Shown here piece after piece: positions 2,403-31,488 of a DNA stretch of 36,548 nt. Under the pieces are notes generated by a model that had not been told where the DNA came from, ran no database searches, and worked only from the letters and a program-made list of their open reading frames with translations. Made by a program: the position numbers and the translations under genes. The stretch is from a virus. Position 1 is the first letter of the stretch; each line of letters begins with the position of its first letter. The stretch spans positions 1 through 36,548 of IMG/VR virus record IMGVR_UViG_3300030450_001980; one strand, given 5' to 3'.

Positions 2403-2625
2403 ATTAAACAAAAACGAATTACAAGTAATTAACAATAAAGATTATGCTTTCTTTGTATGTGATACTATAGAAGGCCTAGAAATACTATCAGGCTGGGAAT
2501 ATAAAGAGGATGCTATTGACGATATGTTAGAAACTAAAGAAAGATATGATTTTCTTTGTTGTAATGAAGGGTTAAAAGTATACACTAGAAGGCATTTAAA
2601 CACGCTAATTAATGGGGGTAAATAA
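2398..2625 (+). CDS. Hypothetical 75-aa protein
   Basis: A 75-residue mostly acidic protein (FFVCDTIEGLEILSGWEYKED, then DDMLETKERYDFLCCNEG) ending KVYTRRHLNTLINGGK. The pattern resembles small phage proteins with one alpha/beta unit; I do not recognise a family. It is the first gene after the control region, has the duplicated leader, and its stop overlaps the next start (TAATG). Confidence 0.6.
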   Translation: MKLNKNELQVINNKDYAFFVCDTIEGLEILSGWEYKEDAIDDMLETKERYDFLCCNEGLKVYTRRHLNTLINGGK

Positions 2626-2705
2626 TGCAATACAAACACATTAAATACTTTTGGATATATCTTTTTGCTATGCTATTAATCGATACAATAAAGAATATAA
2701 TTTAA
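2625..2705 (+). CDS. 26-aa single-helix membrane peptide
   Basis: An ATG at 2625 overlaps the preceding stop (TAATG), with GGGGG nine bases upstream. The product has a short basic N-terminus (MQYKHIK) and one hydrophobic helix (YFWIYLFAMLLIDTI). The ending resembles the C-terminus of the 66-aa protein at 3909 (LLIIVLIDIIK), so the two may be related. Function unknown. Confidence 0.5.
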   Translation: MQYKHIKYFWIYLFAMLLIDTIKNII

Positions 2706-2707
2706 TT

Positions 2708-2739
2708 AACTAAAATAAAAGGCGGGTAAACCTTATGAA
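2708..2739 (+). repeat. Duplicated gene leader, copy 2
   Basis: Second copy of the leader before 2398, differing by one extra A in the A-run. It ends in the ATG of the gene at 2735. Confidence 0.7.
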
Positions 2740-3571
2740 TAATAACACATTAAAACAATACTACGAACGTAACAACCTATTAACAATTAATCAAGACCCA
2801 AAGACCAGCAAAGGAACAAGTAAGGGCTATATAACAGCTATAATATATATGTCACCAGCTTCTTTATCCGGTAAAAATGTTTGTTCTTTTAGTACGGCTG
2901 GATGTCGGGCCGTGTGTTTAAATATGGCGGGGCGTGGTCAATTTAACTATATACAGCAAAGCCGTTTAAATAGGACTAGATATTTTTTAAATGATAGAGT
3001 TAACTTTTTAAATAATCTAACATTGAGAATATCTAATTTTATAGAGTATGCAAAGCGGAAAGAGTTAACGCCTGTAATTAGGCTTAATGGTACAAGTGAC
3101 ATACCATACGAAAATATAAAAATAAAGCTTAATGATTTACTACAATATAAAAAGCTTAACAATAACAAGCATAAAAAAGTATTTACGGCGTTTATTCAGA
3201 ATAACGGGATAAAAGAATCATTAAATATTATGGATATATTTAAAGATATACAATTCTATGACTATACAAAATACCCGCAAACAAGGCGCCCTAAAGCTAT
3301 TAACCAGCGTAATTATGATTTAACTTTCAGCCGTGCCGAAAATAACGAAGCGGAAGCGCTGGAATATATCCGAACTAATAGCGGGCGGGCGTCGTTTGTA
3401 TTTTCTGGAAAGCTTCCAGAATATTACAAAGGCTTAAAAGTAATTGATGCGGATAAAACAGACTTAAGATTTTTAGAACCTAAAAACGTAATTACTGGAC
3501 TGGTTTTTAAAGGGTCTAAAAAAACGCTTAAAGAAGGAATAGAAAGCGGGTTTGTAATACCTAGTATATAA
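2735..3571 (+). CDS. Gp88-like / DUF7227-like phage protein
   Basis: A 278-residue protein. The N-terminal third has the signature I associate with the mycobacteriophage Gp88-like family: KTSKGTSKGY, then MSPASLSGKNVCSFSTAGC and VCLNMAGRG (cysteines 50, 57, 61), QSRLNRTRYFLNDR, and RLNGTSDIPYE about 50 residues later. The biochemical role of this family is not established. The cysteine cluster could bind metal or an iron-sulfur cluster. It follows the duplicated leader and is followed by a stem-loop at 3599. Function not assigned. Confidence 0.6.
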   Translation: MNNNTLKQYYERNNLLTINQDPKTSKGTSKGYITAIIYMSPASLSGKNVCSFSTAGCRAVCLNMAGRGQFNYIQQSRLNRTRYFLNDRVNFLNNLTLRISNFIEYAKRKELTPVIRLNGTSDIPYENIKIKLNDLLQYKKLNNNKHKKVFTAFIQNNGIKESLNIMDIFKDIQFYDYTKYPQTRRPKAINQRNYDLTFSRAENNEAEALEYIRTNSGRASFVFSGKLPEYYKGLKVIDADKTDLRFLEPKNVITGLVFKGSKKTLKEGIESGFVIPSI

Positions 3572-3598
3572 TGTTAACTGATGACGCTTAAAGCAGAA

Positions 3599-3617
3599 AC
3601 CCCGTTTTTTACGGGGT
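3599..3617 (+). terminator. Stem-loop, possible weak terminator
   Basis: ACCCCGT (3599-3605) pairs with ACGGGGT (3611-3617) around a T-rich loop, 28 bases after the Gp88-like stop. The tract after the stem is TCTT rather than a long T-run, so it may only attenuate or stabilise the 3' end. Confidence 0.5.
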
Positions 3618-3642
3618 CTTAACATAAAAGGAATTTAAAAAA

Positions 3643-3801
3643 ATGGTAGATAAAAAAATATTAGAACAAATTAAAAGAATTGATAATGATTTAACTTCCT
3701 GCTGTGAAGTACCTATTCTTTATTATATTGGTATTGATGCAAAAGGAAACCATTATTTTGAACCTTGGGATTTTTGTCCAAGCTGTTTAGAGTGTTGCTA
3801 A
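3643..3801 (+). CDS. 52-aa cysteine-rich protein
   Basis: ATG at 3643, after AAAAGGAA, opens a 52-residue frame. It carries C20-C21 and the ending FCPSCLECC (C45, C48, C51, C52), a zinc-ribbon-like spacing of two cysteine pairs about 25 residues apart. A Tyr-rich middle (ILYYIGIDAKGNHYF) is consistent with strands. It is likely a small zinc-binding early protein of unknown target. Confidence 0.5.
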   Translation: MVDKKILEQIKRIDNDLTSCCEVPILYYIGIDAKGNHYFEPWDFCPSCLECC

Positions 3802-3803
3802 TT

Positions 3804-3896
3804 ATGTATTTAAGATCAGATTTAAAACAAGTAGATCTAAAAATAAAATTAGATCTAAAAAAAAAGCACGGGATCCGCACGGGATCCGCATCATAA
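3804..3896 (+). CDS. Possible 30-aa basic peptide
   Basis: ATG at 3804 opens a 30-codon frame with Lys/Asp/Leu repeats (DLKQVDLKIKLDLKKK). It coincides with the GATC-rich repeats at 3832-3887, so the repeat may be the functional element and the frame incidental. There is no strong ribosome site. Confidence 0.22.
   Translation: MYLRSDLKQVDLKIKLDLKKKHGIRTGSAS
3832..3887. repeat. GATC-rich short direct repeats
   Basis: Two copies of TAGATCTAAAA (3832-3842 and 3850-3860) and two tandem copies of GCACGGGATCC (3866-3876, 3877-3887). With AGATCA at 3813 this gives five GATC sites in about 75 bp, in palindromes AGATCT and GGATCC. Such clusters can be methylation-sensitive protein sites. Confidence 0.7.
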
Positions 3897-3908
3897 AAGG
3901 GGTATAAA

Positions 3909-4109
3909 ATGAAAAATAAACATATGCGTAGTAAATGGCATTACAATAAATATGAATTTTTAAAGCGCTATTATTTAAGGCGCTTGCGTATTAATTCAGA
4001 TAATTTTTTAGATTATATGGATTACTTACTTGAAAAATACGGCCGTAAATTTTGCGCTTGTTTTGGTCTATATCTTTTAATTATTGTATTAATTGATATA
4101 ATTAAATAA
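3909..4109 (+). CDS. 66-aa basic protein with C-terminal membrane helix
   Basis: The first 50 residues are Lys/Arg/Tyr-rich (KWHYNKYEFLKRYYLRRLR) and the last 17 form a hydrophobic segment (CFGLYLLIIVLIDIIK). This suggests a tail-anchored inner-membrane protein with a basic cytoplasmic domain. AAAGGGG lies seven bases before the ATG. The C-terminus resembles the 26-aa peptide at 2625. No family recognised. Confidence 0.6.
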   Translation: MKNKHMRSKWHYNKYEFLKRYYLRRLRINSDNFLDYMDYLLEKYGRKFCACFGLYLLIIVLIDIIK

Positions 4110-4128
4110 ATAAAAAAGGGGGTTTAAT

Positions 4129-4206
4129 TTGATTATAGATTTAAGTCTAGGTTCTTTAATTGTAATTTGTATTACATTGATTTTAATTACAATTTTAACT
4201 AAATAA
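4129..4206 (+). CDS. 25-aa membrane peptide, TTG start
   Basis: TTG at 4129 follows AAAAAAGGGGG with five bases between. The product is almost entirely hydrophobic (IIDLSLGSLIVICITLILIT) and should be one membrane helix. The terminator at 4216 follows ten bases later, so it is the last gene of this unit. Confidence 0.45.
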   Translation: MIIDLSLGSLIVICITLILITILTK

Positions 4207-4215
4207 AAGGGTATT

Positions 4216-4244
4216 AAAAAGGCGTTTAAAAGCGCCTTTTTTTT
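4216..4244 (+). terminator. Intrinsic terminator of the first early unit
   Basis: AAAAAGGCGTTT pairs with AAAAGCGCCTTTTTT with one bulged C, followed by eight T residues. It is the clearest rho-independent terminator in the window and separates the 2398-4206 unit from the repeat region. Confidence 0.85.
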
Positions 4245-4318
4245 ATGCTGGATTTAAATCTATATATATAAATATTATGAATATCAAAAAACAAGTAAAA
4301 AAATTAGTAAAATTTTCT

Positions 4319-4420
4319 TTATATCTAGCGTTATATCTAGCGCTATAGTTTTATATTTGGCGTTATATTTGGCGTTATATTTGGCGTTATATTTGGCGTT
4401 ATATTTGGCGTTATATTTGA
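4319..4420. repeat. 12-bp tandem repeat array (iteron-like)
   Basis: Two copies of TTATATCTAGCG (4319-4342), an 8-bp spacer CTATAGTT, five perfect copies of TTATATTTGGCG (4351-4410) and a sixth that decays to TTATATTTGATC. It lies in a 300-bp stretch without a long gene, just after a terminator and just before a very AT-rich segment: the layout of an iteron origin. The units also read as Leu-Tyr-Leu-Ala; both differences between the two variants fall in one codon and leave it leucine. An ATG at 4277 reads in frame into the first two units (MNIKKQVKKLVKFSLYLALY then stop at 4346), while the other five are in another frame. Confidence 0.85.
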
Positions 4421-4547
4421 TCAGATAGTTATAATTGACGCAAAATTTATGATCTACTTTTTATATTTATAATTATATTTTTATTGCTATTATAAATTAT
4501 AATCGATAAATTTAGTGAAACGGGTAATTAAAAAACGGAGAGTTAAA
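4421..4547. other. AT-rich segment beside the repeat array
   Basis: After the array come about 90 bases made almost only of A and T (4441-4510), with TTGACG at 4435, a perfect TATAAT at 4498-4503 and two more GATC sites (4419, 4451). No convincing -35 box stands 17 bases before the TATAAT. It could serve as a DNA-unwinding element of an origin, a promoter for the 4548 unit, or both. No gene is seen. Confidence 0.45.
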
Positions 4548-4793
4548 ATGAAAAAAGAAATTAATAAAGATTGTTCAATATCTTATGAGATCAGAGTTTG
4601 TCAGATCTCTAATGATTATAAATCACGACCTTATAAATCAACACGCCGAATGGTTATAAATGATATAGAGTATAACTTCATTAAAAAATGCCTAGATAAT
4701 GAATATGGAATAGGCGACCACTTTGAAGACCTAGACAAAGAAGTAGAAAAAATCACATCATCAAGACTTATAAATAGGAGGGTATCTAAATGA
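4548..4793 (+). CDS. Hypothetical 81-aa early protein
   Basis: The frame is open from a GTG at 4515, but ATG 4548 has a proper CGGAGAG site nine bases upstream, the same GGAGAGTTAAAATG leader seen at 7423 and nearly at 8056. The product is charged (KEINKDCSISYEIRVCQIS, later GIGDHFEDLDKEVEKI). I do not recognise it. It begins the second early unit and is ATGA-coupled to the next gene. Confidence 0.6.
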   Translation: MKKEINKDCSISYEIRVCQISNDYKSRPYKSTRRMVINDIEYNFIKKCLDNEYGIGDHFEDLDKEVEKITSSRLINRRVSK

Positions 4794-4969
4794 ATAGAAC
4801 AATTATACTAACATTAAAAGTTAATAAAAAATTAAACGAATTTAGCAGAGATGTTGGAGATATTTTTAGGGAAGAATTTAATGATATAAAGTGGCTAAAA
4901 CACTTTTCTAAAAAATACATTCAGACAGGAATTTATGATATAATTGAAAGAGAAGAATATAAACTATAA
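4790..4969 (+). CDS. Hypothetical 59-aa protein
   Basis: ATG at 4790 overlaps the previous stop (ATGA) and has GGAGGG eight bases upstream. The 59 residues are helical and Lys/Glu/Phe-rich (KKLNEFSRDVGDIFREEF, WLKHFSKKYIQTG). No family recognised. Confidence 0.55.
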   Translation: MNRTIILTLKVNKKLNEFSRDVGDIFREEFNDIKWLKHFSKKYIQTGIYDIIEREEYKL

Positions 4970-4992
4970 ATCAAAAAAGGAAGGGTAACCAA

Positions 4993-5163
4993 ATGCAAAA
5001 CAAAAACCAAATAAATAAAGTAAGTAAAAAAGAATGTTTAGATGCAATAGAGTATTTTTGGCAATGCGTAGATTTAGATGATAGTGGAGATAGAATCCAT
5101 TATACAAAAATATTGCTAAAAAAAGTAGCTAACGATTGTAAGATTAAATTGGAGGGTATTTAA
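4993..5163 (+). CDS. Hypothetical 56-aa protein
   Basis: ATG at 4993 has AGGAAGGG about eight bases upstream. The product is helical with SKKECLDAIEYFWQCVDLDD and LLKKVANDCKIKLEG, three spaced cysteines and a stop directly before the ATG of the 223-aa gene, whose GGAGGG site lies inside its last codons. No family recognised. Confidence 0.55.
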   Translation: MQNKNQINKVSKKECLDAIEYFWQCVDLDDSGDRIHYTKILLKKVANDCKIKLEGI

Positions 5164-5835
5164 ATGCAAGTAATAATAAATCTAGAACATAAAATAGAAG
5201 TAGAATGTTTAAAACACGCTCTGGAATTAACAGAGTCATATTGGAGAAATCCAATGAACTCTTGGTTATACGGGTCTGGTTCGGATTATAATTCTATTAT
5301 AATTGAGGATGGGGTTCCAACGGGTTATTTTCACGGGATTCGTTTTATGGATTGGGATGATACTGAAGCTATAAAAGAAAATTCTGCAATGAGCAATCCA
5401 TTTACCAATGGTTCTGATTGTTGTAAGCATTGGGATAAAGTTAAGCATAATTTTATTCCAGTATTATGGACGCCAAGAGTAAATCTTGAACATCAAATAG
5501 CATCAATTCTTTATAAAAATGATGAGATTGAAATATTAAGAGAGCAAGAGTCTGATAAATATCCTTATGTTTATTTTATAGATGTATTTAAACACGATGT
5601 CCAAGATAGTGATGAAGCTTTTGATGGCGCTATGTCTGAAAGTTTTTCAGATATGAGTCTTATTTTGGATTATCTGGAAAATAATTTTAACATTCCTAAA
5701 GGAATTATTAATCAAATAGAAAATAGTAGATCATATAAAAAGTATTTAGAAGATCATAAACAAAGATTAGATGACATTAGAATACATATATTATCTAGCA
5801 AATTTCACAATAAATACATATCGGAGGAAAAATGA
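5164..5835 (+). CDS. Hypothetical 223-aa early protein
   Basis: The largest gene of this cassette. The N-terminal half is rich in Trp and Gly and looks globular (SYWRNPMNSWLYGSGSDYNS, GYFHGIRFMDWDDTEA), with a DCCKHW segment near 86; the C-terminal 60 residues are helical and charged. I recognise no catalytic motif or family. It starts right after the preceding stop with GGAGGG upstream and is ATGA-coupled to the next gene. Confidence 0.6.
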   Translation: MQVIINLEHKIEVECLKHALELTESYWRNPMNSWLYGSGSDYNSIIIEDGVPTGYFHGIRFMDWDDTEAIKENSAMSNPFTNGSDCCKHWDKVKHNFIPVLWTPRVNLEHQIASILYKNDEIEILREQESDKYPYVYFIDVFKHDVQDSDEAFDGAMSESFSDMSLILDYLENNFNIPKGIINQIENSRSYKKYLEDHKQRLDDIRIHILSSKFHNKYISEEK

Positions 5836-6029
5836 AAGTATTAAACCTACCTGCAGAACCAAGCCATATTATAAATTATATTGAAGATGATATGTATATA
5901 TCCTTTTTATATTGGCTTCGGGATAAAAAAGATTATAATTCTGCAACAGATATTATAAGTGTTGTAGAAGCGCCACATAAATACAATAAAGAATTTCAAC
6001 AATTTAAAACAGAATGGGAGGAAAAATGA
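5832..6029 (+). CDS. Hypothetical 65-aa protein
   Basis: ATG at 5832 overlaps the stop of the 223-aa gene (ATGA) and follows CGGAGG. An acidic, aromatic small protein (EDDMYISFLYWLRDKKDY). Its last codons contain the GGGAGG site of the next gene. No family recognised. Confidence 0.55.
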   Translation: MKVLNLPAEPSHIINYIEDDMYISFLYWLRDKKDYNSATDIISVVEAPHKYNKEFQQFKTEWEEK

Positions 6030-6217
6030 AAGTAATTAATATTGTAAGAAAAGAAATAGAAAACACTTTAGATGTAGAAAGAGAAAATGCCTTGCAATAC
6101 TCATCTTCAATTAGCGAAGCAGATGATATACATAAAGGCTGGATTGAAGCGCTGGAATATGTTTTAGATGTAATTGATATAAAAATAGCAGTAGAAAAAG
6201 TAAAGGAGGGAAAATGA
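6026..6217 (+). CDS. Hypothetical 63-aa protein
   Basis: An ATG at 6014 is in frame, but the ATG at 6026 follows GGGAGG with proper spacing and overlaps the previous stop (ATGA), so 6026 is chosen. The product is one long amphipathic helix pattern with WIEALEYVLDVIDIKIAVEK at the end. It is coupled to the next gene through GGAGGG. No family recognised. Confidence 0.55.
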   Translation: MKVINIVRKEIENTLDVERENALQYSSSISEADDIHKGWIEALEYVLDVIDIKIAVEKVKEGK

Positions 6218-6381
6218 ATCAAGAACAATTATCTTTTGAAATGCATTGCAGAGAGGATTTATATTTCTTTTGTCCTCTATGTGAGGATTACCATAAGAAA
6301 ATAAAAGACGCATCTACAGGCCAACTAAAAGGCCATTCTTTGTGTCAGATGCCTGTAGAGAATTATAATGATAAATATTAA
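6214..6381 (+). CDS. 55-aa putative zinc-binding protein
   Basis: ATG at 6214 overlaps the previous stop and follows GGAGGG. It contains MHCREDLYFFCPLCEDYHKK and a later HSLCQM, giving Cys/His ligands C12, C20, C23, H27 and C44. A CPLC knuckle in a 55-residue early protein suggests a zinc-binding fold. Target unknown. Confidence 0.55.
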   Translation: MNQEQLSFEMHCREDLYFFCPLCEDYHKKIKDASTGQLKGHSLCQMPVENYNDKY

Positions 6382-6529
6382 GATAGATTTTAAGATCCAA
6401 ATCGATGAAAGCAAGTTTGATCGTTGGTGTTATAAGCGTTCAATAAGTAGAAGTTACGGCAGAAATCTTATAAAAGACGATGTAGAGATACTTTCAAAAT
6501 TATATTTAAAAGAAAACAAATTAAAATAA
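6368..6529 (+). CDS. Hypothetical 53-aa basic protein
   Basis: ATG at 6368 lies inside the end of the preceding gene (14-bp overlap). The product begins with alternating hydrophobic/charged residues (MINIKIDFKIQID) and then is basic (RWCYKRSISRSYGRN), a possible nucleic-acid-binding surface. No family recognised. Confidence 0.5.
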   Translation: MINIKIDFKIQIDESKFDRWCYKRSISRSYGRNLIKDDVEILSKLYLKENKLK

Positions 6530-6540
6530 GGAGATCATAA

Positions 6541-6684
6541 GTGGCTAGAAAAATAAACATTGATTCTCTATTAAGAGACCATACAATGTATAAATCTTTA
6601 TTATTAGAGGTTTATAAAAACAATAAAAAGATAAACAGGAAGATTCGTCAGCATTTAGAAAAATCAGATTTAGAGGATTATTAA
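6541..6684 (+). CDS. Hypothetical 47-aa protein, GTG start
   Basis: GTG at 6541 follows AAGGAG with eight bases between. The helical, basic product reads ARKINIDSLLRDHTMYKS and NNKKINRKIRQHLEKSD. No family recognised. Confidence 0.5.
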   Translation: MARKINIDSLLRDHTMYKSLLLEVYKNNKKINRKIRQHLEKSDLEDY

Positions 6685-6685
6685 A

Positions 6686-6802
6686 TTGTATAAAAGTAAA
6701 TGTTGCAGTCAACCGCCTTTATATGATGTAGATAATAAAGGTTTTGGTATATGTGGTTGGTGTAAAAAACCAAGCAAATTCAAAAAAAAGGAGAAAAAAT
6801 GA
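6686..6802 (+). CDS. 38-aa zinc-ribbon peptide, TTG start
   Basis: TTG at 6686 follows AGAGG by nine bases, just after the previous stop. The peptide has KCCSQ (C6, C7), a short hairpin-like middle, and GICGWCKKPSK (C23, C26), the layout of a minimal zinc ribbon, then a Lys-rich tail. Its end carries the GGAGAAAA site of the next gene. The spacing strongly suggests a real gene despite its size. Confidence 0.55.
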   Translation: MYKSKCCSQPPLYDVDNKGFGICGWCKKPSKFKKKEKK

Positions 6803-6963
6803 ACAATATTAGATGGATAGTTTTAGGGTATTTTATGGCTATATGTATAAATGGATGTGATTTAGGGATCACTAATAATAATGAGGGTGGTTTTGATGAA
6901 ATTACAAATAGTGGAATAGGTTCATCTCAATGGAATCCTGTATATGTTAAGGTAGTAGATTGA
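6799..6963 (+). CDS. 54-aa putative lipoprotein
   Basis: ATG at 6799 overlaps the preceding stop (ATGA). The N-terminus is a short signal-like segment (NNIRWIVLGYFMAI) ending in ICINGC, a near-lipobox with Cys 20; Asn at -2 is not standard. The mature part would be Gly/Asn-rich and about 34 residues long. Small phage lipoproteins can act as outer spanins or superinfection-exclusion proteins, but the position in an early cassette and lack of a proline-rich segment argue for exclusion or unknown rather than lysis. Confidence 0.5.
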   Translation: MNNIRWIVLGYFMAICINGCDLGITNNNEGGFDEITNSGIGSSQWNPVYVKVVD

Positions 6964-7028
6964 TGTTTGAAGGATTCATCTTGTTAATAATTCCAGTTAT
7001 ATATTTAATTGTATTTATATCTACTTAA
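6963..7028 (+). CDS. 21-aa membrane peptide
   Basis: ATG at 6963 overlaps the lipoprotein stop (TGATG). The peptide is one hydrophobic helix (MFEGFILLIIPVIYLIVFIS). It is the fourth such one-helix peptide in the early region. It would be translated by coupling, as no separate ribosome site is seen. Confidence 0.4.
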   Translation: MFEGFILLIIPVIYLIVFIST

Positions 7029-7350
7029 ATGGTTAATACAACCCTAGAGCAAAGCATAGAACTCCCTACCCCTCATCAGAGGGTGGGAGGCTATGCCGTT
7101 AGAAATTACAACCCTTGTCGCTTTCGTGCATACAGATCATATTTCAAGCTAGGATCTGCGGAAATTCATTTATTTATTCTTGAAAATATAGATAGCAACT
7201 CAAATTCCTTCACTTTGTTGTGTGGCTTTCTATCAACCCCTTTTGGTAACCACTTTATTTTTATATTCAAGCCAAAAGTTTCAAACCAAACCTTGAATGG
7301 ACTACTAATATATGTATTGTTTTATATTTATATCAAGAACTTTTTTTTAC
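7029..7350. other. Non-coding stretch between early units
   Basis: A 118-codon frame from ATG 7029 spans this stretch, but its plus strand is pyrimidine-rich unlike the purine-rich genes around it, it has no ribosome site of its own and it would end inside the promoter at 7351. The minus strand is full of stops. Besides the hairpin at 7054-7096 it contains nested inverted repeats (CTTTTGG with CCAAAAG near 7242 and 7273; ATTCAAG with CTTGAAT near 7265 and 7292). I read it as untranslated RNA or control sequence. Confidence 0.5.
7037..7115 (+). ncRNA. Structured RNA candidate with flanking 9-bp repeats
   Basis: GCATAG (7054-7059) pairs with CTATGC (7091-7096); inside, CTCCC pairs with GGGAG, and the apical part closes as CCCTC-ATCA-GAGGG with small bulges, giving about 16-17 pairs with high GC in an AT-rich genome. 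The direct repeat TACAACCCT occurs at 7037-7045 and 7107-7115, just outside the stem. There is no T-run after it, so it is not a simple terminator. The strand of transcription is inferred from the neighbouring genes. Confidence 0.45.
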
Positions 7351-7380
7351 TTGACAATGTCAGACTTATTCATTTATATT
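7351..7380 (+). promoter_or_regulatory. Near-consensus sigma70 promoter
   Basis: Perfect TTGACA at 7351-7356, 18-base spacer, TATATT at 7375-7380 (5/6). Transcription would start near 7387 and give a 5' leader of about 36 bases to the gene at 7423. It is the best promoter match seen in the window and heads the DNA-metabolism unit. Confidence 0.75.
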
Positions 7381-7422
7381 CGTAATAACATATGGTAATA
7401 ATTTATAACAAGGAGAGTTAAA

Positions 7423-8055
7423 ATGAAGGAAATGCCAAAAAACATAACAGCGGTAGCTGAAAAATACAAACTAAATCCAGAGTCAGATTTCTGGACAATA
7501 GGTGACAATTGGATTATAACACACGATGCGGTTACAAAGATTGCAGAGATAGAGAATGTTGAATTTGATGAGCCTAAAGTAGAAATAATACACGACACCG
7601 AAGCGTTTTATGGTGTAGCAATGTGGGGTAAAGGTAGGATTATAAGAATAGATGAAGATGGAAACGACTTTACTAAAGAAGTTTGGACTACCGCAGATGC
7701 TACCCGTGATAATGTTAGAGGTAAAGGTGGTTATTATTTTAATATGTGTGAAAAAAGATGGCAAGATCGTTTGGTCTTAAAACTGCTTAATTTATATGAG
7801 TATGGTTTATATTCTGATGTAGAGGCAGACGATTTTAAAAAGGGTCAGAGCAAAGAAAAGCCTATGTCTGATTATATGAAGAATACTATTAGGCAGTTGC
7901 TTGTAGCTAAAAAAGAATACAGGCGTGAAGAAACAGAGGCTATTTTTCAATCTCTTAACGCAGAACAGGGTAAGGAATGGCGGGATAGAATACAGAGTCC
8001 AGAGATTGATAAATGGATTGTAGAATTTTATAAATTAAACAAAAAGGAGAGTTAA
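7423..8055 (+). CDS. Putative recombination / ssDNA-annealing protein
   Basis: A 210-residue protein. It begins with DFWTIGDNWIITHDAVTKIA and a second block MCEKRWQDRLVLKLLNLYEY followed by YSDVEADDF. I know this two-block pattern from phage proteins encoded beside SSB genes and from annealing-type recombinases ('-AEKRA-DRV-LKL--'), but cannot name a family firmly. The C-terminal third is helical and charged (EAIFQSLNAEQGKEWRDRIQ). It is the first gene after the strong promoter, has AAGGAGAG nine bases upstream, and is followed directly by the SSB-like gene with the same leader. The role is inferred largely from context. Confidence 0.5.
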   Translation: MKEMPKNITAVAEKYKLNPESDFWTIGDNWIITHDAVTKIAEIENVEFDEPKVEIIHDTEAFYGVAMWGKGRIIRIDEDGNDFTKEVWTTADATRDNVRGKGGYYFNMCEKRWQDRLVLKLLNLYEYGLYSDVEADDFKKGQSKEKPMSDYMKNTIRQLLVAKKEYRREETEAIFQSLNAEQGKEWRDRIQSPEIDKWIVEFYKLNKKES

Positions 8056-8481
8056 ATGAGTTCATTTAAATTTCAAGTTGGAGAACCAAGAAAGGTAACA
8101 CTTTCTTTTGATCAGCCAAAAACAGGTAAGAATGAGTATGGTATGTGGTATTTATATGGCATTAAGTCTGATATAAATAGCGATGAGGATAGTTTCTTTG
8201 CTACTGCAACCCTTCATAGTATGATTCAAACATTAGGCGCTAAAGAAGGCGATGACCTAACTATTGAAAAGTGCATTGATGGAGATATGTCTTTTTTTAA
8301 AGTTAATGGATTATCTATCAATGATATGAATAGCGGTGGATCTCAAGAGAAAATATCTGAAGCGCAAGAAAAAAGCGGTATTAGTTCTGTAGATCAGTTA
8401 AAGGCTAGAATAAAAGAGCTTGAGTTAGAAATAGCTTCTTTAAAGAAAAATCAACTTACTGAAGATGACATACCTTTTTAA
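8056..8481 (+). CDS. ssb: Single-stranded DNA-binding protein-like
   Basis: A 141-residue protein. Residues about 1-95 alternate strands as in an OB fold (FKFQVGEPRKVTLSFDQP, MWYLYGIKS, FFATATLHSMIQTLG, FFKVNGL). A coiled-coil-like segment follows (VDQLKARIKELELEIASLKK). The last residues, TEDDIPF, match the conserved acidic tip that bacterial SSBs use to recruit RecO, PriA, exonuclease I and other partners. The OB part is unlike typical Ssb, so this is probably a phage-specific analogue. It follows the putative annealing gene with the same GGAGAGTTAAATG leader. Confidence 0.65.
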   Translation: MSSFKFQVGEPRKVTLSFDQPKTGKNEYGMWYLYGIKSDINSDEDSFFATATLHSMIQTLGAKEGDDLTIEKCIDGDMSFFKVNGLSINDMNSGGSQEKISEAQEKSGISSVDQLKARIKELELEIASLKKNQLTEDDIPF

Positions 8482-8482
8482 T

Positions 8483-8872
8483 ATGCCAGACTTTAAGAAA
8501 GTTAGTTTTGAGCAGTTTTATAGCGCCTATCCAAGAAAGGTTGGGCGCTATACTGCTGAAAAAAGTTTTAAAAAGCTTTCTACTAAAGATAAAATTGATG
8601 CATATAATGGGTTAAAAAATTACCTTAAATACTGGAAAGCTTCAGAAACAGAAAAACAATTTATACCGCACCCATCAACTTTTATAAATCAAAAAAGATG
8701 GGAAGATGAGATAGATATTCCAACTCAAAAAGCAGAATTTAAGCACGATGCTACAGGTAGGTTTTTTATAGCATATTGTGACAAATGTAAGGTTTCAGAT
8801 TTTTATAATGATTATGAACTAAAAGGGGATAGCAGATGCTGTAACGCCCCTTTATTACCAGAGAGGGAATAA
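8483..8872 (+). CDS. Replication-initiator-like protein with zinc knuckle
   Basis: Residues near the start read FEQFYSAYPRKVGRYTAEKSF, followed by DAYNGLKNYLKYW and IPHPSTFINQKRWEDE. This is the helical domain found at the C-terminus of many phage replication-initiator/DnaD-like proteins. The C-terminal 40 residues add CDKC (YCDKCKVSDFYNDYE) and SRCCNAPLLP, a likely zinc site. Here the domain stands almost alone, without the usual N-terminal DNA-binding part. ATG 8465 in the same frame, overlapping the SSB gene, is an alternative start; ATG 8483 directly after the SSB stop is preferred, though neither has a good ribosome site. Confidence 0.6.
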   Translation: MPDFKKVSFEQFYSAYPRKVGRYTAEKSFKKLSTKDKIDAYNGLKNYLKYWKASETEKQFIPHPSTFINQKRWEDEIDIPTQKAEFKHDATGRFFIAYCDKCKVSDFYNDYELKGDSRCCNAPLLPERE

Positions 8873-9054: not shown

Positions 9055-9285
9055 GTGAAAGCTAAAGAATATAATTTAAGAAAGATTTATATCTGTAGAT
9101 ATGAAGATGGAGATGTTGAATTTTGCACATTTCATACAAATCAAGCAGATGCTAGAAAAAGTAGAACATCTTTTAAAAGAAAATTTGGCGTTGTTGGTAG
9201 CGTTGAACTACAAAAGATTAGTTATACTAAAAAAGGTTTTATAGATTTATTTAATCGCTACGGCATAAAATATAGGCAGAGATAA
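9055..9285 (+). CDS. Hypothetical 76-aa basic protein, GTG start
   Basis: GTG at 9055 follows AGGAGATAATT. A small beta/helix-like basic protein (LRKIYICRYEDGDVEFCTFH, DARKSRTSFKRKFG) that could bind nucleic acid. No family recognised. It is the last gene before the hairpin at 9292. Confidence 0.55.
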   Translation: MKAKEYNLRKIYICRYEDGDVEFCTFHTNQADARKSRTSFKRKFGVVGSVELQKISYTKKGFIDLFNRYGIKYRQR

Positions 9286-9291
9286 TAAAAT

Positions 9292-9350
9292 TGAGGGGAG
9301 AGGGTTTTAACTCTCTTGGTTACCCGCCAATACCCCATCCTTTCCCCTCA
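9292..9350 (+). promoter_or_regulatory. Stem-loop in front of the methyltransferase
   Basis: TGAGGGGAGAGGGT (9292-9305) pairs with ATCCTTTCCCCTCA (9337-9350): 14 pairs including two G-T. The left arm is the only Shine-Dalgarno-like sequence in front of the methyltransferase and the right arm ends seven bases before its ATG, so the structure could control translation. A competing small hairpin GAGAG/CTCTC lies at the loop edge. Confidence 0.55.
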
Positions 9351-9357
9351 CCTTTCT

Positions 9358-9981
9358 ATGAGCAATATTAAGCTTATAAATGACGATTGTATGAATGTGA
9401 TCCCAAATTACGAAACCAATCATTTTGATTTAGCAATAGTAGACCCCCCATACGGACTCCCAGATTTTAGTGAAAACCCAGAGCAGGGAACAGGGGTTTT
9501 GAAAAACAGAATATTTCAAGAAATGGATAAAAAGAGATGGGATAAAGCTCCTGATTCATTATATTTTAAGGAATTGTTTAGAGTTTCTAAAAACCAGATC
9601 ATATGGGGTGGCAATTATTTTGACTTACCACCAACAAGAGAAATTATATGCTGGGATAAGGAACAGCCATTTACAAATTTTAGTGCTTGGGAATTTGCTT
9701 GGACATCTTTTAATAAACCTGCTAAAATATTTAGAATGAATAACAGAGTTAAAGGTAAGATACACCCAACAGAAAAACCTCTTAAACTTTACAAATGGTT
9801 ACTGCACACTTATTCAGAAAAAGGATTTAAAGTGCTGGACACACATTTAGGATCTGGAAACATTGCTATAGCCTGTCATTTGTTTGATTGTGATTTATTA
9901 GGCGTAGAGATAGACCCAGAATATTATAAAAAAGCATATAGAAATTTTAAAGACATTACAAGCCAGGGGGAGATTTTTTGA
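9358..9981 (+). CDS. DNA adenine/cytosine-N4 methyltransferase
   Basis: A 207-residue amino-methyltransferase that moves a methyl group from SAM to an exocyclic amine in DNA. The catalytic DPPYG is at residues 29-33; HPTEKP at 136-141; the SAM-binding loop DTHLGSGNIAIA at 161-172 and GVEIDPEYY at 182-190. Motif IV before motif I is the beta-class order. Specificity cannot be read from sequence. The frame is open back to a TTG at 9316, but residues conserved in this family begin at ATG 9358 (MSNIKLINDDC). It has no free Shine-Dalgarno sequence, only the one in the stem at 9292. No restriction partner is seen, so it probably protects or marks phage DNA. Confidence 0.88.
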   Translation: MSNIKLINDDCMNVIPNYETNHFDLAIVDPPYGLPDFSENPEQGTGVLKNRIFQEMDKKRWDKAPDSLYFKELFRVSKNQIIWGGNYFDLPPTREIICWDKEQPFTNFSAWEFAWTSFNKPAKIFRMNNRVKGKIHPTEKPLKLYKWLLHTYSEKGFKVLDTHLGSGNIAIACHLFDCDLLGVEIDPEYYKKAYRNFKDITSQGEIF

Positions 9982-11019: not shown

Positions 11020-11452
11020 TAGCACAGAGGCAGTATTTATATCTGCATTATATTTACATAAGCAAGGATTAGACGTGAGAATAAATGCAATGCAAAAAGC
11101 TAAATCTCACAAAGATTGGAAAGAATGTAAAGATGATGGAGATATGTATATTTATAAAAACAATAAAAGTTACAGGATTGAGGTAAAAGGATTGAGTTGC
11201 GATTTTACAGGGTGTAGCGATTGGAAGTTTAAAGATTTTATTGTATGCGCAAAACACTCTTATGATAATTCAGAGCCAAAACCTTATGCTTATATGATAT
11301 TAAATAAAAATAAAACACATATGGCTATTGTAAACACAAGAACCTATCTAGATTGGGAGATAGTCTCAAGAAAAGACTCTAGATATGAAAATGTTACTCA
11401 AGAATTTTATACTTGCCCTCTTAATAAAATACAATGGAGACAAATAGTATGA
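10979..11452 (+). CDS. PD-(D/E)XK nuclease-like phage protein
   Basis: A 157-residue protein. The core DDGDMYIYKNNKSYRIEVKG places D55 and E68-x-K70 as the PD-(D/E)XK active-site set, followed by DWKFKDFIVCAKHSYD and KPYAYMILN, which I recognise from phage proteins usually labelled hypothetical. ATG 10979 has AAGGGGG seven bases upstream. It is ATGA-coupled to the PAPS-reductase-like gene. Substrate unknown; recombination or repair is likely from context. Confidence 0.55.
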   Translation: MRENHRKFLSHLNNSTEAVFISALYLHKQGLDVRINAMQKAKSHKDWKECKDDGDMYIYKNNKSYRIEVKGLSCDFTGCSDWKFKDFIVCAKHSYDNSEPKPYAYMILNKNKTHMAIVNTRTYLDWEIVSRKDSRYENVTQEFYTCPLNKIQWRQIV

Positions 11453-12267
11453 CATTTAAAAAATATTGTAAAGGCAACAAAAACGCTGATCTGAAAATTA
11501 TATCTTTAGGTATGGGAGTGCAGTCTACCGCTGTTTACTTAATGAGTTCTATGAAATACAAGCTGCCAAGAGCAGATTATGCAATATTTTCTGATCCACA
11601 GGCAGAACATTACAAAACCTATGAAATGCTTGAGTGGTTGTTAAGTTGGCAAAAAGAAAACAACGGGATCCCTATTGTTGTAAATAGAGATAATAATTTA
11701 TATAAAGATATTATAGAAAATTATAAAAATGGGTCTAGGGTTGCGTCTATCCCAGCACATACCTCTAACAATGGATTAGTAAGAAGGCAATGCACGGAAG
11801 AGTATAAAATAAAACCCGTTATAAAAAGCGCTAGAGATTTACATAAATTAAAGTATAAGCAAAGAATGAAACCTACAGAGCTTTGGCTTGGCATATCTAC
11901 GGATGAAATTCAAAGGCTTAAAGAATCGAGCCTCTATAATATAAAATATTTTTATCCACTTATTTATCACGGAATGAGCAGGGTTGATTGTATGAATTTT
12001 TTTAAAAAAAACAATTTTCCAGTACCTATTAAATCTAGCTGTGTGTTTTGCCCATTTCATTCTGATAAATTTTGGAGATCTATAAAAAAAGAAAATGGAG
12101 ATGCTTGGAAAATATCTTTAGAAGTAGATAAGGCTATAAGGGTTCACCCAAAAATGAATGAAAAGCAATATTTAAACAGGCAATGTAAGCCTTTAGATGA
12201 AGCTGATCTTAATGAAAATCAAACAGATTTATTTATAGAAGAATGTGAGGGATATTGTGGATTATAA
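11449..12267 (+). CDS. PAPS reductase-like / adenine nucleotide alpha-hydrolase protein
   Basis: A 272-residue member of the PP-loop ATP pyrophosphatase superfamily. The PP-loop is SLGMGVQS (19-26), followed by AIFSDPQAEHYKTYE, RRQCTEEYKIKPV (C115), WLGISTDEIQRLK and SSCVFCPFH (C198, C201), ending GYCGL. PAPS reductases, DndC and related enzymes share the loop; the CxxC with further cysteines may hold a metal or cluster. An in-frame ATG at 11434 exists, but 11449 has GGAG nine bases upstream and ATGA overlap. Phage versions are of unknown role; nucleotide or nucleic-acid sulfur chemistry, or another adenylation-type step, is possible. Confidence 0.7.
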   Translation: MTFKKYCKGNKNADLKIISLGMGVQSTAVYLMSSMKYKLPRADYAIFSDPQAEHYKTYEMLEWLLSWQKENNGIPIVVNRDNNLYKDIIENYKNGSRVASIPAHTSNNGLVRRQCTEEYKIKPVIKSARDLHKLKYKQRMKPTELWLGISTDEIQRLKESSLYNIKYFYPLIYHGMSRVDCMNFFKKNNFPVPIKSSCVFCPFHSDKFWRSIKKENGDAWKISLEVDKAIRVHPKMNEKQYLNRQCKPLDEADLNENQTDLFIEECEGYCGL

Positions 12268-14619: not shown

Positions 14620-17600
14620 TCGTAAATAACTCCTAGGTCTCCATATTCGCCCTCATCTATAATATGATTAACAATTTGAAGAATATCTAAAACAGTTACA
14701 TAGTTGTCTTGGTCAATATCTGCTGCCATATAATTATATCCTCCTAACTGATCTTCAGGATTATCCCCCATTATATGGTCAACAATCTGAACAATATCAA
14801 GCACATCAATAGATTGGTCAAAGTTAACATCTCCTAACACTATTTGCGAAAATTCATCTCCCTCTACGCCTTCTTCTGCACCTTCTTCTGGCCAATGAAC
14901 ATTAACCCCAAAATCTTGCCCAAACGTAGCTAAAGCATCGTTAATAATAACATTTTCATCAAATTTATGAATTTGCAATAAAACTAAATCAACTTTATTT
15001 TGATGTTTTTTAATTTCCTGCACCATAAAATAAGGATAAACTACTTGCCCTATTTCGCTTTGGTCTGGCAAACCTATAAAAAATTCTTTAGTATAATCTT
15101 GACCGAAAATTGTCATTCCATTTATTAATCTTTCAAAGTTTACCACATCTCCAGCCTCTAAGTTCATATATTTTGGAGAAACAGAACATTTAATAATATT
15201 GTGCTGATTCATATTCCAAAGAAGAAGGTGGTTTCTTAGCTTTATAGCAGTTCCTTCATCCCTTATAAATTTACTATCAACTTCTAAATATGCGTCAGAT
15301 AATTTTCTAATTCCATATCTTTCCATTAAATAATCAGCATTAGCTGGAGCTGCACCAGTCTGTGCTACATTTGTCGAATGCTCAAATGTCTCTAGCCCAT
15401 CATCGTAAGAATAGTTAACTCTTACCATTAGCTTAACATCCGATATTGGTGTCCTTTCGTAACTAAAATCTATAACATCCTCTGGATTTATTGTTTCGTC
15501 TATTGTGTAAGCATCGTCTTTTAAATTTATAAAAGAAAAAGTGCCATCGTATCTGAATCGTGGAATTATTTTACAACTTTGACAAAATTCACTTAAAAAT
15601 GTTTTTGAATCCATTTTATCGTTTACTGTAAAACGAAATTCCCATTGACTATGTTGTGTTCTTGCTGTTTCTAAAGATAGGGAGTCATAAGGAAAATCAT
15701 TTAACTGATTATCATATCCTAGTTCTTTTTCTACTATATGCATCAACACATCGGATGGTCGCTTTATTAACCAACTATGATCTGGGTTTCCAAGAAGCTG
15801 TTCACCTGTATATCTTCCAGACACTCCGTCTGTACCTAAGTTATCTATTCTTCCCCATACATCTGCATAGTATTTTTGCTTTGCTATATTACCTATAACA
15901 AAATTTTGTATTAATTTAAAATCTATTACTCTTGTTTGAAAATATCCACTAACCGCAATACTGTCTACATCATCATTATCATTGCCTAAATAATAATATA
16001 AAGACACATTGTTGACTGAATTTACATCCTCTGACCAGTCTCCCCCTTGGTATGTATCTGCACTTTGATCCATAGCATTACATTCTTGCAGTATATATTT
16101 CGGGCTATTTATATCTGTGCCTACTGCGCTACTTGTTCCGTAATAGATATTGTTATCAAAATCTTCTGAATGACCCGTATGAAAAATATCGTATACTTGT
16201 TGCCCAGCTTCATTTTCATCGCCTGTTAATGGCTCGGTATTATTAAGTATTTCTGAAATTTTTAAAACATCATTTTTATTAGAACCTGGAGTTGAATCAA
16301 AGCTAGTTGCTTCTATCATAAAATGCATATTAGCATCTGTATCTTCAGTTGAAGCTGCGTTTCTATGAAACAAAGTTTCTATTTTGCCTCTTAAAGTGGA
16401 GTACACACTCCCCATTACCACATCTGAGCCACTAATTGAGTTAAATGTTAAGTCTAATTTGCTTGCAATTCTATTTCCGAAAGAATTACTAACTAAAGCC
16501 CATTGACCTCCTAACATAGCTTCGACACCTTTATTATCAATATTTGGATGCCCCCAGTTATAACCTACTCTGCCACCAAAGTCATAATAGCTTACGTGGG
16601 TTACGTATTGACTTTGCCCCATAGAATTAAGTGCTTTATTGTAGCCTGAATGGTATGCCAAACCATATTCATTAGGCTCTGCAGAATAAACCATACCAAC
16701 CCACCAATAGCCTTGCTCTTCTATAGCTGGAATAGAATATGCTGGATCGATATAATAATCACTAGTAGGGGCAACAGTATCTGGATATGTGTAATGCTGT
16801 CTAACTATCCAGTCTGGGCTATTTATCTCTGTATATTTTGCATCCGCAGGCCACATATCATTTATATCTGACCCTGCAGGACTATCTTCACCAACATAAT
16901 TTAAATCTCCATCTAAATCGTGCCTAACCAAATCTCCTAAATCTGCTGGAGGGTTAAAAACATCGGCAGATCCATAAGATTGTAAGGCATCACAATTAAG
17001 AGTATAGTAGGAGCCAAGCGTAAAGCTTCCCGTTCCTGGGTAAATGTTTGTAATCGCATAGTAATCTTCAAACCACGTATTTTCTAATGATGTAATCTGT
17101 ACATTCCCAAGAGTTGGAAATATCCCATAAATACTAGACCCTCTTCTTATTCCAGTATATTGATGCTCCTCTTCGGTTAATTTTCTACCCCAAATTATTT
17201 TATTTAAAGTTACGTCAGTATTAGTTATTTGAGGGTCAACCCCTATTTTAGCTGCATCGTGAACTGTTATCCAATCTGCTACACCATCTTTTAAAAACAT
17301 ATCCCAGTCTGTGTCAAATATATTTTTTGTTATACTAATATATTCTTGGTCGTCATCTTCAAGGGAGTTAAAGTTAGCCCCATTACCAGACCCTTCAACG
17401 AGAATTGGCGCATTTTCGGCAGAGCATTTTATATAAAGATACTCGCATATTGGAAACTGCTCCCAATCTTGCATTTGCGAAGCTATAAATTCAAGAGCAT
17501 CTCCCCCTCCAGGTATACCGTCATTTGCCTCTAAATCTCCTCCAAGGTCTATATTGTCCCCGCCTATTCCTATATTTATAGTAATTGCCGCATTACCCAT

Positions 17601-30273: not shown

Positions 30274-31488
30274 CTATACGACCACTTTGAATATGGTTTC
30301 TCGTTTCCGATTTTTTTTCGCTGATTTTGCATTATACGCCTCCAAAGTCTTATCAATATCATAACCACTACAATCTGTATTTTGCAAGTCTATCTTAATA
30401 CCGTCTCGATTTCCATTATCATAGAACACATAAGCGTTCTGACTTGCTCTTCCACCGAGATTTAAAGCTTTTTCAGAATAATCATTCGCACCTACCATAC
30501 TAGATGATCTGCCAAAACAATCTCCTACTCTAGCTGAATGAACGTGTCCAAATATAACATAGTCTATCTTTATACCTTTCATCGAGTATCTACCGCATAT
30601 CTGATTGATAGACTTTTCTACACCTGCACCTACTGCCCCGTGTCCGTGTATCATCAAAAGATTCTGGCCCGCAACATTAATAACTAATTCAGATGGATCG
30701 CCGTCTATAAAATGTACCTTTGAGTCCTTAAAAAGGTATCTTAAGCAGTTAAAAATAGTATAGTCATAGTTATCAGTAGCTACAGAATTTGACCATCCCA
30801 ATTCCTTATTTGCACGTCCTTCATTTCCAACTACATTTGCCACACTAACATTAAACCTGCTGTTTAAGTCTAGAACAACCTGCTGCATTATATCTACAGC
30901 TAAAAAGGTTGCGTTAGCCCTATTAGAAGCCTGATTAAGTAATTCATCCAGCCTTCGGTCACTATTCATTAGGTCTCCAGTTAAAGCTACCACAACTTGG
31001 CTAACTCCATTAATCTTGAAGTATGCTGATGCCTTCTCTACGAAGTATTGGCATCGCTGTGAAGCAACTTTAAAATCATAACGATTATTCTGAAGTTCAA
31101 CTAATTCATTAAAATGAACATCACTAAATTGGATGACCCCAACCGCCCTTTTACTAATCTTATGGCTCTTAGTTAGTTTATGTAGTTTATTTTTTTCAAA
31201 AAGCTTTTTTAATTCTTTGCTGTACTCTTCTACAGCGTTTTCAACTCTTGCGTGTTCTCTAAAGCCCTTTCTTTCTATTCTAGTAACGTCTTGGGCTTTT
31301 TGTTTCTCTTTTCTGTACCTAACATTTTCTCGAAGAAGTTCTAAGTCTTCAATAGGATTTACCGTTCTATACTTGCAAGCACCGCATTGATATCGCTGCT
31401 TATATTTATCAAACCCACTTTTAGCTAAACCTCTATGGTAGCATCTTGGGCAAGCAAGAACCTTATCTAGGTATTCGTCAGATGACAT
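30274..31488 (-). CDS. Zinc-ribbon + calcineurin-like metallophosphoesterase
   Basis: A 404-residue protein. A zinc ribbon opens it (CPRC at 13-16, CGAC at 35-38), then a basic helical linker (about 50-110), then the phosphoesterase: FSDVHFNE (D123, H125), LTGDLMNS (D172), VGNEGR (N222), MIHGHG (H281, H283) and FGHVHS (H316... H318 region). The usual GNH is GNE here, so the His that assists catalysis is replaced by Glu. Homologous phosphoesterases in phages are seen as nucleases or phosphatases. Its place in the late lysis region is unusual; the zinc ribbon suggests a nucleic-acid substrate. Confidence 0.7.
   Translation of the reverse strand: MSSDEYLDKVLACPRCYHRGLAKSGFDKYKQRYQCGACKYRTVNPIEDLELLRENVRYRKEKQKAQDVTRIERKGFREHARVENAVEEYSKELKKLFEKNKLHKLTKSHKISKRAVGVIQFSDVHFNELVELQNNRYDFKVASQRCQYFVEKASAYFKINGVSQVVVALTGDLMNSDRRLDELLNQASNRANATFLAVDIMQQVVLDLNSRFNVSVANVVGNEGRANKELGWSNSVATDNYDYTIFNCLRYLFKDSKVHFIDGDPSELVINVAGQNLLMIHGHGAVGAGVEKSINQICGRYSMKGIKIDYVIFGHVHSARVGDCFGRSSSMVGANDYSEKALNLGGRASQNAYVFYDNGNRDGIKIDLQNTDCSGYDIDKTLEAYNAKSAKKNRKRETIFKVVV

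Follow-up and report, generated by a model that had tools for sequence, protein, structure and literature searches.

Iteron-type replication origins of plasmids and lambda-like phages combine short direct repeats with an adjoining AT-rich tract, and the primary origin of phage T7 is known for its arrangement with promoters. One account places this T7 origin at an AT-rich cluster at 3761-3821 of T7 (PMC12839067). Variable-number tandem repeats (VNTRs) that arise through replication slippage include, e.g., those of the Borg elements (PMC9879509). Here, we analyse an array of 12-base-pair (bp) tandem repeats in the virus record IMGVR_UViG_3300030450_001980, which was covered over its whole length of 36,548 bp (hereafter the window) and for which a preliminary description had proposed an origin, a broken membrane-peptide gene or a phase-variable frame. 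The array probably arose when a 12-bp segment underwent recent tandem expansion, specific to this lineage, at a repeat-prone control region, with strand slippage as the most likely mechanism. Coordinates are collected in Table 1.

The array holds seven perfect 12-mers of two types (two copies of TTATATCTAGCG and five of TTATATTTGGCG) and a decaying eighth unit, TTATATTTGATC, which matches at 9 of 12 positions; this composition had been recognized from the start, although the array ends at 4422 and not at 4420. Units are 100% identical within each type, which argues for a young array, and the array is far outside what chance would give: exact lagged self-matches extend up to 57 bp, at a lag of 12, whereas ten sequences simulated from a first-order Markov model of the window reach 9-13 bp at any lag.

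Relatives were drawn from IMG/VR metagenome contigs and one contig of a metagenome-assembled genome (MAG), TMED88, and the matching region was placed in about ten of them by synteny (TerS, a GP88-like gene, small genes, and the SSB-like and Rep-like genes). The closest relative by terminase, L002 (TerL 91%), has neither the array nor the conserved box described below at the matching place, while L029 has one TTATATCTGGCG followed by TTATAATTTGATC. The locus thus shows what characterizes slippage-type VNTRs, namely near-identical head-to-tail units without a conserved copy number (one plus a variant in L029, none in L002). No dimer of the 12-mer, exact or degenerate, was found in 2.9 million viral contigs, a collection that may lack records very close to the window. 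Other arrays occupy the matching place, namely 13-bp arrays in L013 and L014, and an 8-bp array of unrelated sequence, GCGCCCCA, in L006 (9583-9637, seven copies) and L084 (5677-5707, four copies). Over 3.65 kilobases (kb), L084 and L006 share 98.4% identity despite carrying four and seven copies, hence copy-number polymorphism between near-identical genomes is seen at this place, for an array different from the 12-mer. A C6/G6 hairpin comes next after the GCGCCCCA array in both contigs. Given the different arrays and the seven versus four copies in a near-identical pair, the matching place is a repeat-prone site. In 0.90 megabases of relatives, arrays of at least three copies amount to nine rows, about six of them distinct, and two lie in this small region (P ~3e-4 under an even spread, which is an order of magnitude with related loci treated roughly).

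The array is like the Borg tandem repeats in that intergenic arrays can be missing in a close relative, and unlike them in that it occupies one site per genome rather than being pervasive, with one block in-frame in a tiny open reading frame (smORF, for small open reading frame) and the other past its stop. The preliminary description named, as what would refute it, a replication start mapped elsewhere together with close relatives that lack the array or have an unrelated one; the latter is what is seen for the array itself, while the surrounding region is conserved.

The starting state was probably similar to that of L029, with one TTATATCTGGCG at the 3′ end of the smORF and then the similar 13-mer TTATAATTTGATC. 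Two such neighboring imperfect repeats in an easily melted region would provide pairing partners for slippage, and two rounds of expansion could have led to the two units of the CTA type and the five of the TTG type, which flank a truncated unit with the smORF stop. Both unit types are one step away from the CTG of L029, and the final unit TTATATTTGATC matches the GATC-ending element TTATAATTTGATC of L029 and L006. The functional items would then be the single-copy box with the smORF and the low-stability AT-rich tract, while the array would probably be neutral or have a slight modulating effect. Several points weigh against a young slippage product: a TTATAA core is shared by arrays in several relatives, and several arrays end in GATC (window, L029, L006, and L013/L014). 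In addition, TTATAATT is ~20-fold more common here than elsewhere in the loci, an excess that is partly due to base composition and that could reflect selection on repeated putative binding sites rather than mere slippage. Furthermore, the copy number of the array was taken from a metagenome assembly, and the collection scans may leave out records very near the window.

The first block of the array forms the 3′ end of the smORF, which, as previously described, runs from the ATG at 4277 through a basic lead-in and two units to a stop, with the 8-bp spacer placing the remaining units in another frame (shifted by 2 mod 3). Counterparts of 17-34 amino acids (aa) are found in L029, L013, L014, L010, L017, L027, L009, and L006, and seven to eight relatives retain box and smORF at the matching position, with partial conservation of their sequence. 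The peptides are all short with a basic start, and most are hydrophobic thereafter. In the window the smORF starts at the ATG where the box ends, while the ATG of L029 lies a few bases further on; the L006 counterpart, MINKIIIKIVVIVLNIFIGKNKYILLHHK, is at the matching position without a box and with a Shine-Dalgarno sequence. As the window peptide is similar in length to its counterparts and shares the end LYLAL* with that of L029, the stop at 4346-4348 appears to be the normal end, so that the proposed small basic-hydrophobic peptide is indeed encoded, in a gene that is not broken. Among the smORFs of L010, L017, L013, and L014, the nine variable columns are distributed 2/0/7 over the codon positions (P = 0.008, for a short peptide and few sequences), and this third-position excess suggests that the smORF is translated. 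Together with the positional counterparts in seven to eight relatives, this protein-level constraint is, if weakly, as expected of a conserved small phage protein. A Shine-Dalgarno-like 4-mer precedes 31 of the 42 other genes of the window and is absent from the smORF.

The units read Leu-Tyr-Leu-Ala (LYLA), and the two differences between the unit types are synonymous and in one codon, as had been stated; this is not significant, as a random substitution in the LYLA frame has a 27.8% chance of being synonymous, and two in a row are expected in ~8% of cases before allowing for the choice of frames. A phase-variable frame, as also proposed, is ruled out in its usual form, because the unit length of 12 bp is a multiple of three and a change in copy number keeps the frame. 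Gain or loss of a unit in block 1 would add or remove one LYLA, and block 2 lies beyond the stop. It is very improbable that a -1 frameshift at the A_AAA_AAA run joins all LYLA units into a repeat membrane peptide of 50 aa: the heptamer is in the right frame, the -1 frame is open as far as the TAG at 4426, and the later units all read LYLA in it, but the long tail is found in no relative, and the counterpart in L029 stops right after LYLAL. Moreover, a base composition like this one makes homopolymeric A runs common, and a search for stable RNA structure found none (z = 0.05). An Rfam search gave no match.

The array was correctly described as lying beside a terminator and an AT-rich tract. 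The GC content of the window is 33.9% on average (standard deviation 4.1%), and the lowest-GC 300-bp stretch of the whole record, at 19.3%, is 4058-4357. The trough between 4242 and 4547 has 17% GC when the array is left out, and the array 31%, making it the least AT-rich part. In the fetched parts of L009, L010, L013, L014, L027, L029, and L006 the lowest GC likewise coincides with the matching region or adjoins it. Box, smORF, and AT-rich tract all lie between the terminator and the next operon and make up the GC minimum of the phage. The box, GCTRGATTTAAATCTATATATATAARTATWATG, directly 5′ of the array, is common to L029, L013, L014, L010, L017 (contig L124), and L027, and partly to L009; in the window it is a single match with up to three mismatches allowed. 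A loose pattern scan for the box gave 31 matches, mostly chance ones in unrelated phages, with L010, L013, L014, and L017 as the only relatives. L124, the 35,220-bp contig of L017, starts inside the box (L124:1-30), so the assembly broke exactly there.

Box and smORF most likely combine a promoter with a basic-hydrophobic peptide whose translation is leaderless or weak, and the region may be the promoter of the operon bound for the SSB-like and Rep-like genes, an origin, or both. That the units themselves serve as tandem operator or promoter elements with TATAAT/TATATT-like cores, their copy number tuning transcription of the downstream operon like a rheostat, is quite unlikely. The array does lie between the terminator and the first ribosome-binding site (RBS) of the next operon, and in L024 (9694-9737) three copies of a similar 13-mer, TTATAATTTTAGA, are found directly 5′ of the RBS of the counterpart of window gene 3643-3801, which means that TTATAA 13-mers occur at another gene start too. 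However, sigma-70-like promoters are not in excess (9 found, 11 expected), no regulator was identified, and the array is missing from most of the relatives with the same operon.

A replication origin, in which the 12-mers would bind a phage initiator and change with it in sequence and number between phages, and which the promoter-like box and AT-rich tract would complete, is unlikely. As at iteron-type origins, several direct repeats (eight units of 12 bp) adjoin an AT-rich tract at the genome-wide GC minimum, and the minimum recurs at or near the matching region in the relatives checked that have the box or the smORF. The box is single-copy, tandem TTATAA-bearing 12- or 13-mers recur at this place in the window, L013/L014, L006, and L029, the TTATAATT enrichment noted above, partly compositional, is also as expected of initiator sites, and 3.5-4 kb downstream the operon reaches the SSB-like and Rep-like genes. 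Unlike iteron origins, the repeats are not a conserved set, do not lie in or beside an initiator gene, and appear to be a young expansion. L002 lacks them, yet its Rep-like protein is 70-86% identical to that of the window; this protein (135 aa) matches its profile only in part (positions 179-262 of 383), and its gene is 4 kb away. There are no DnaA boxes in the region, the nearest TTATNCACA-like sites being at 9121 and 29160, and at 7747 and 28501 on the reverse strand. GC skew, which had been suggested for finding the replication start, is confounded by gene orientation, and at third codon positions it has no clear break at the site (difference of about 1.5-1.9 standard errors) and hence gives no sign of a replication start. 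The array thus does not behave as an iteron set, while the conserved AT-rich trough in which the array lies leaves room for an origin somewhere in the region. Like the T7 primary origin, the trough is AT-rich and lies between early genes of a similar-sized phage, near a putative promoter; unlike it, its sequence is unrelated, the window genes scanned include no T7-type RNA polymerase or primase, and it is known from sequence alone. A combined version, in which box, leaderless smORF, and AT-rich tract form a transcription-activated origin of an undescribed siphovirus group and TTATA(A/T)TTTG(ATC) elements of 12-13 bp are fast-changing, copy-number-variable initiator sites in lineage-specific arrays at one place, is quite unlikely.

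Three further candidates were rejected. TATATTTG fits TAnnTTTG, the Bacteroidetes promoter pattern. Bacteroidetes naturally lack Shine-Dalgarno sequences, according to one report (PMC6847099); because the window genes have strong ones (31 of 42) and the spacing is wrong, this assignment was dropped. TATAAATA, considered as a T4 late promoter, is an 8-mer found on both strands, with many sites unrelated to operon starts. The TerS/early intergenic gap (1845-2397), considered as a rival repeat site, has weak two-copy repeats only.

The record has an exact 99-bp repeat at both ends, as from a circular assembly, and the phage is siphovirus-like, with terminase, head, neck, tail-tube, and tape-measure families identified. 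BLAST of window positions 2501-8500 against 50,697 phage records found no related DNA, and all terminases in these records are <60% identical to that of the window (best ~33%). A scan of genome contigs gave a single MAG contig, L209 in 'bacterium TMED88' (TerL 78%), which is probably a binning artefact and not evidence of a host. An 11-bp tandem lies ahead of a small gene in the window (Table 1), and in L002 two copies of the related CACGGGATCAGATT lie near 16170-16255.

Table 1. Features of the window and smORF peptides of its relatives.
Feature	Position	Strand	Description
11-bp tandem	3866-3890		GCACGGGATCC, 2.3 copies, ahead of small gene
Intrinsic terminator	4216-4241	+	11-pair stem, then T-run; ends upstream operon
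Conserved box	4247-4279	+	GCTGGATTTAAATCTATATATATAAATATTATG; overlaps smORF start codon; promoter-like or origin-like
smORF	4277-4348	+	23 aa, MNIKKQVKKLVKFSLYLALYLAL; no Shine-Dalgarno sequence; array at its 3′ end
A_AAA_AAA run	4297-4303	+	smORF frame; -1 slip would read later LYLA units to TAG at 4426; unsupported, long tail not conserved
Array block 1	4319-4342	+	2x TTATATCTAGCG, smORF frame
Spacer, 8 bp	4343-4350	+	CTATAGTT; contains smORF stop TAG; resembles degenerate, truncated unit (cf. TTATAATT, L029, L014)
Array block 2	4351-4422	+	5x TTATATTTGGCG (4351-4410), then TTATATTTGATC (4411-4422); 3′ of smORF stop
AT-rich tract	4423-4530		TTATAA elements, e.g., TTATAAATTATAATCGATAA at 4490-4509; ahead of RBS of next gene
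First downstream gene	4548-4793	+	81 aa, RBS CGGAGAG; opens operon leading to SSB-like and Rep-like genes
SSB-like gene	8056-8481		
Rep-like gene	8465-8872		
N6/N4 DNA methylase gene	9316-9981	+	Early region
PAPS-reductase-like gene	11434-12267	+	Early region
Exonuclease-like gene	30274-31488	-	phrog_284, metallophosphoesterase; in late structural operon, an unusual location
smORF peptide, L029			MKKNLQKLINNNIFLLYLAL
smORF peptide, L014			MNIKKHIIKIINSVIISVAWNYKFRL
smORF peptide, L013			MNIKKDIINIINSVIISVALIYKFRL
smORF peptide, L010 and L017			MKLKKHIIKIINSVIISVA
smORF peptide, L027			MKKIKKDILNIIFSSIISEAYNYIIYIYLPYKTK
smORF peptide, L009			MRIIKNIIKNNKMRAIK, short

An array can therefore look both iteron-like and coding and yet be neither, here as a probable young expansion seeded in a tiny conserved gene. 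The event, a young tandem expansion, is ordinary, while the place is of interest, as it is a conserved and uncharacterized control region of an undescribed phage group. Box, smORF, and AT-rich trough are more useful than the array, since together they point to where the control site (promoter or origin) of this phage group, which has no close members in the phage records searched, most likely lies, and they offer a short, testable fragment. If the site is an origin, the repeated independent arrays there would make it a tractable case of fast origin-site turnover.
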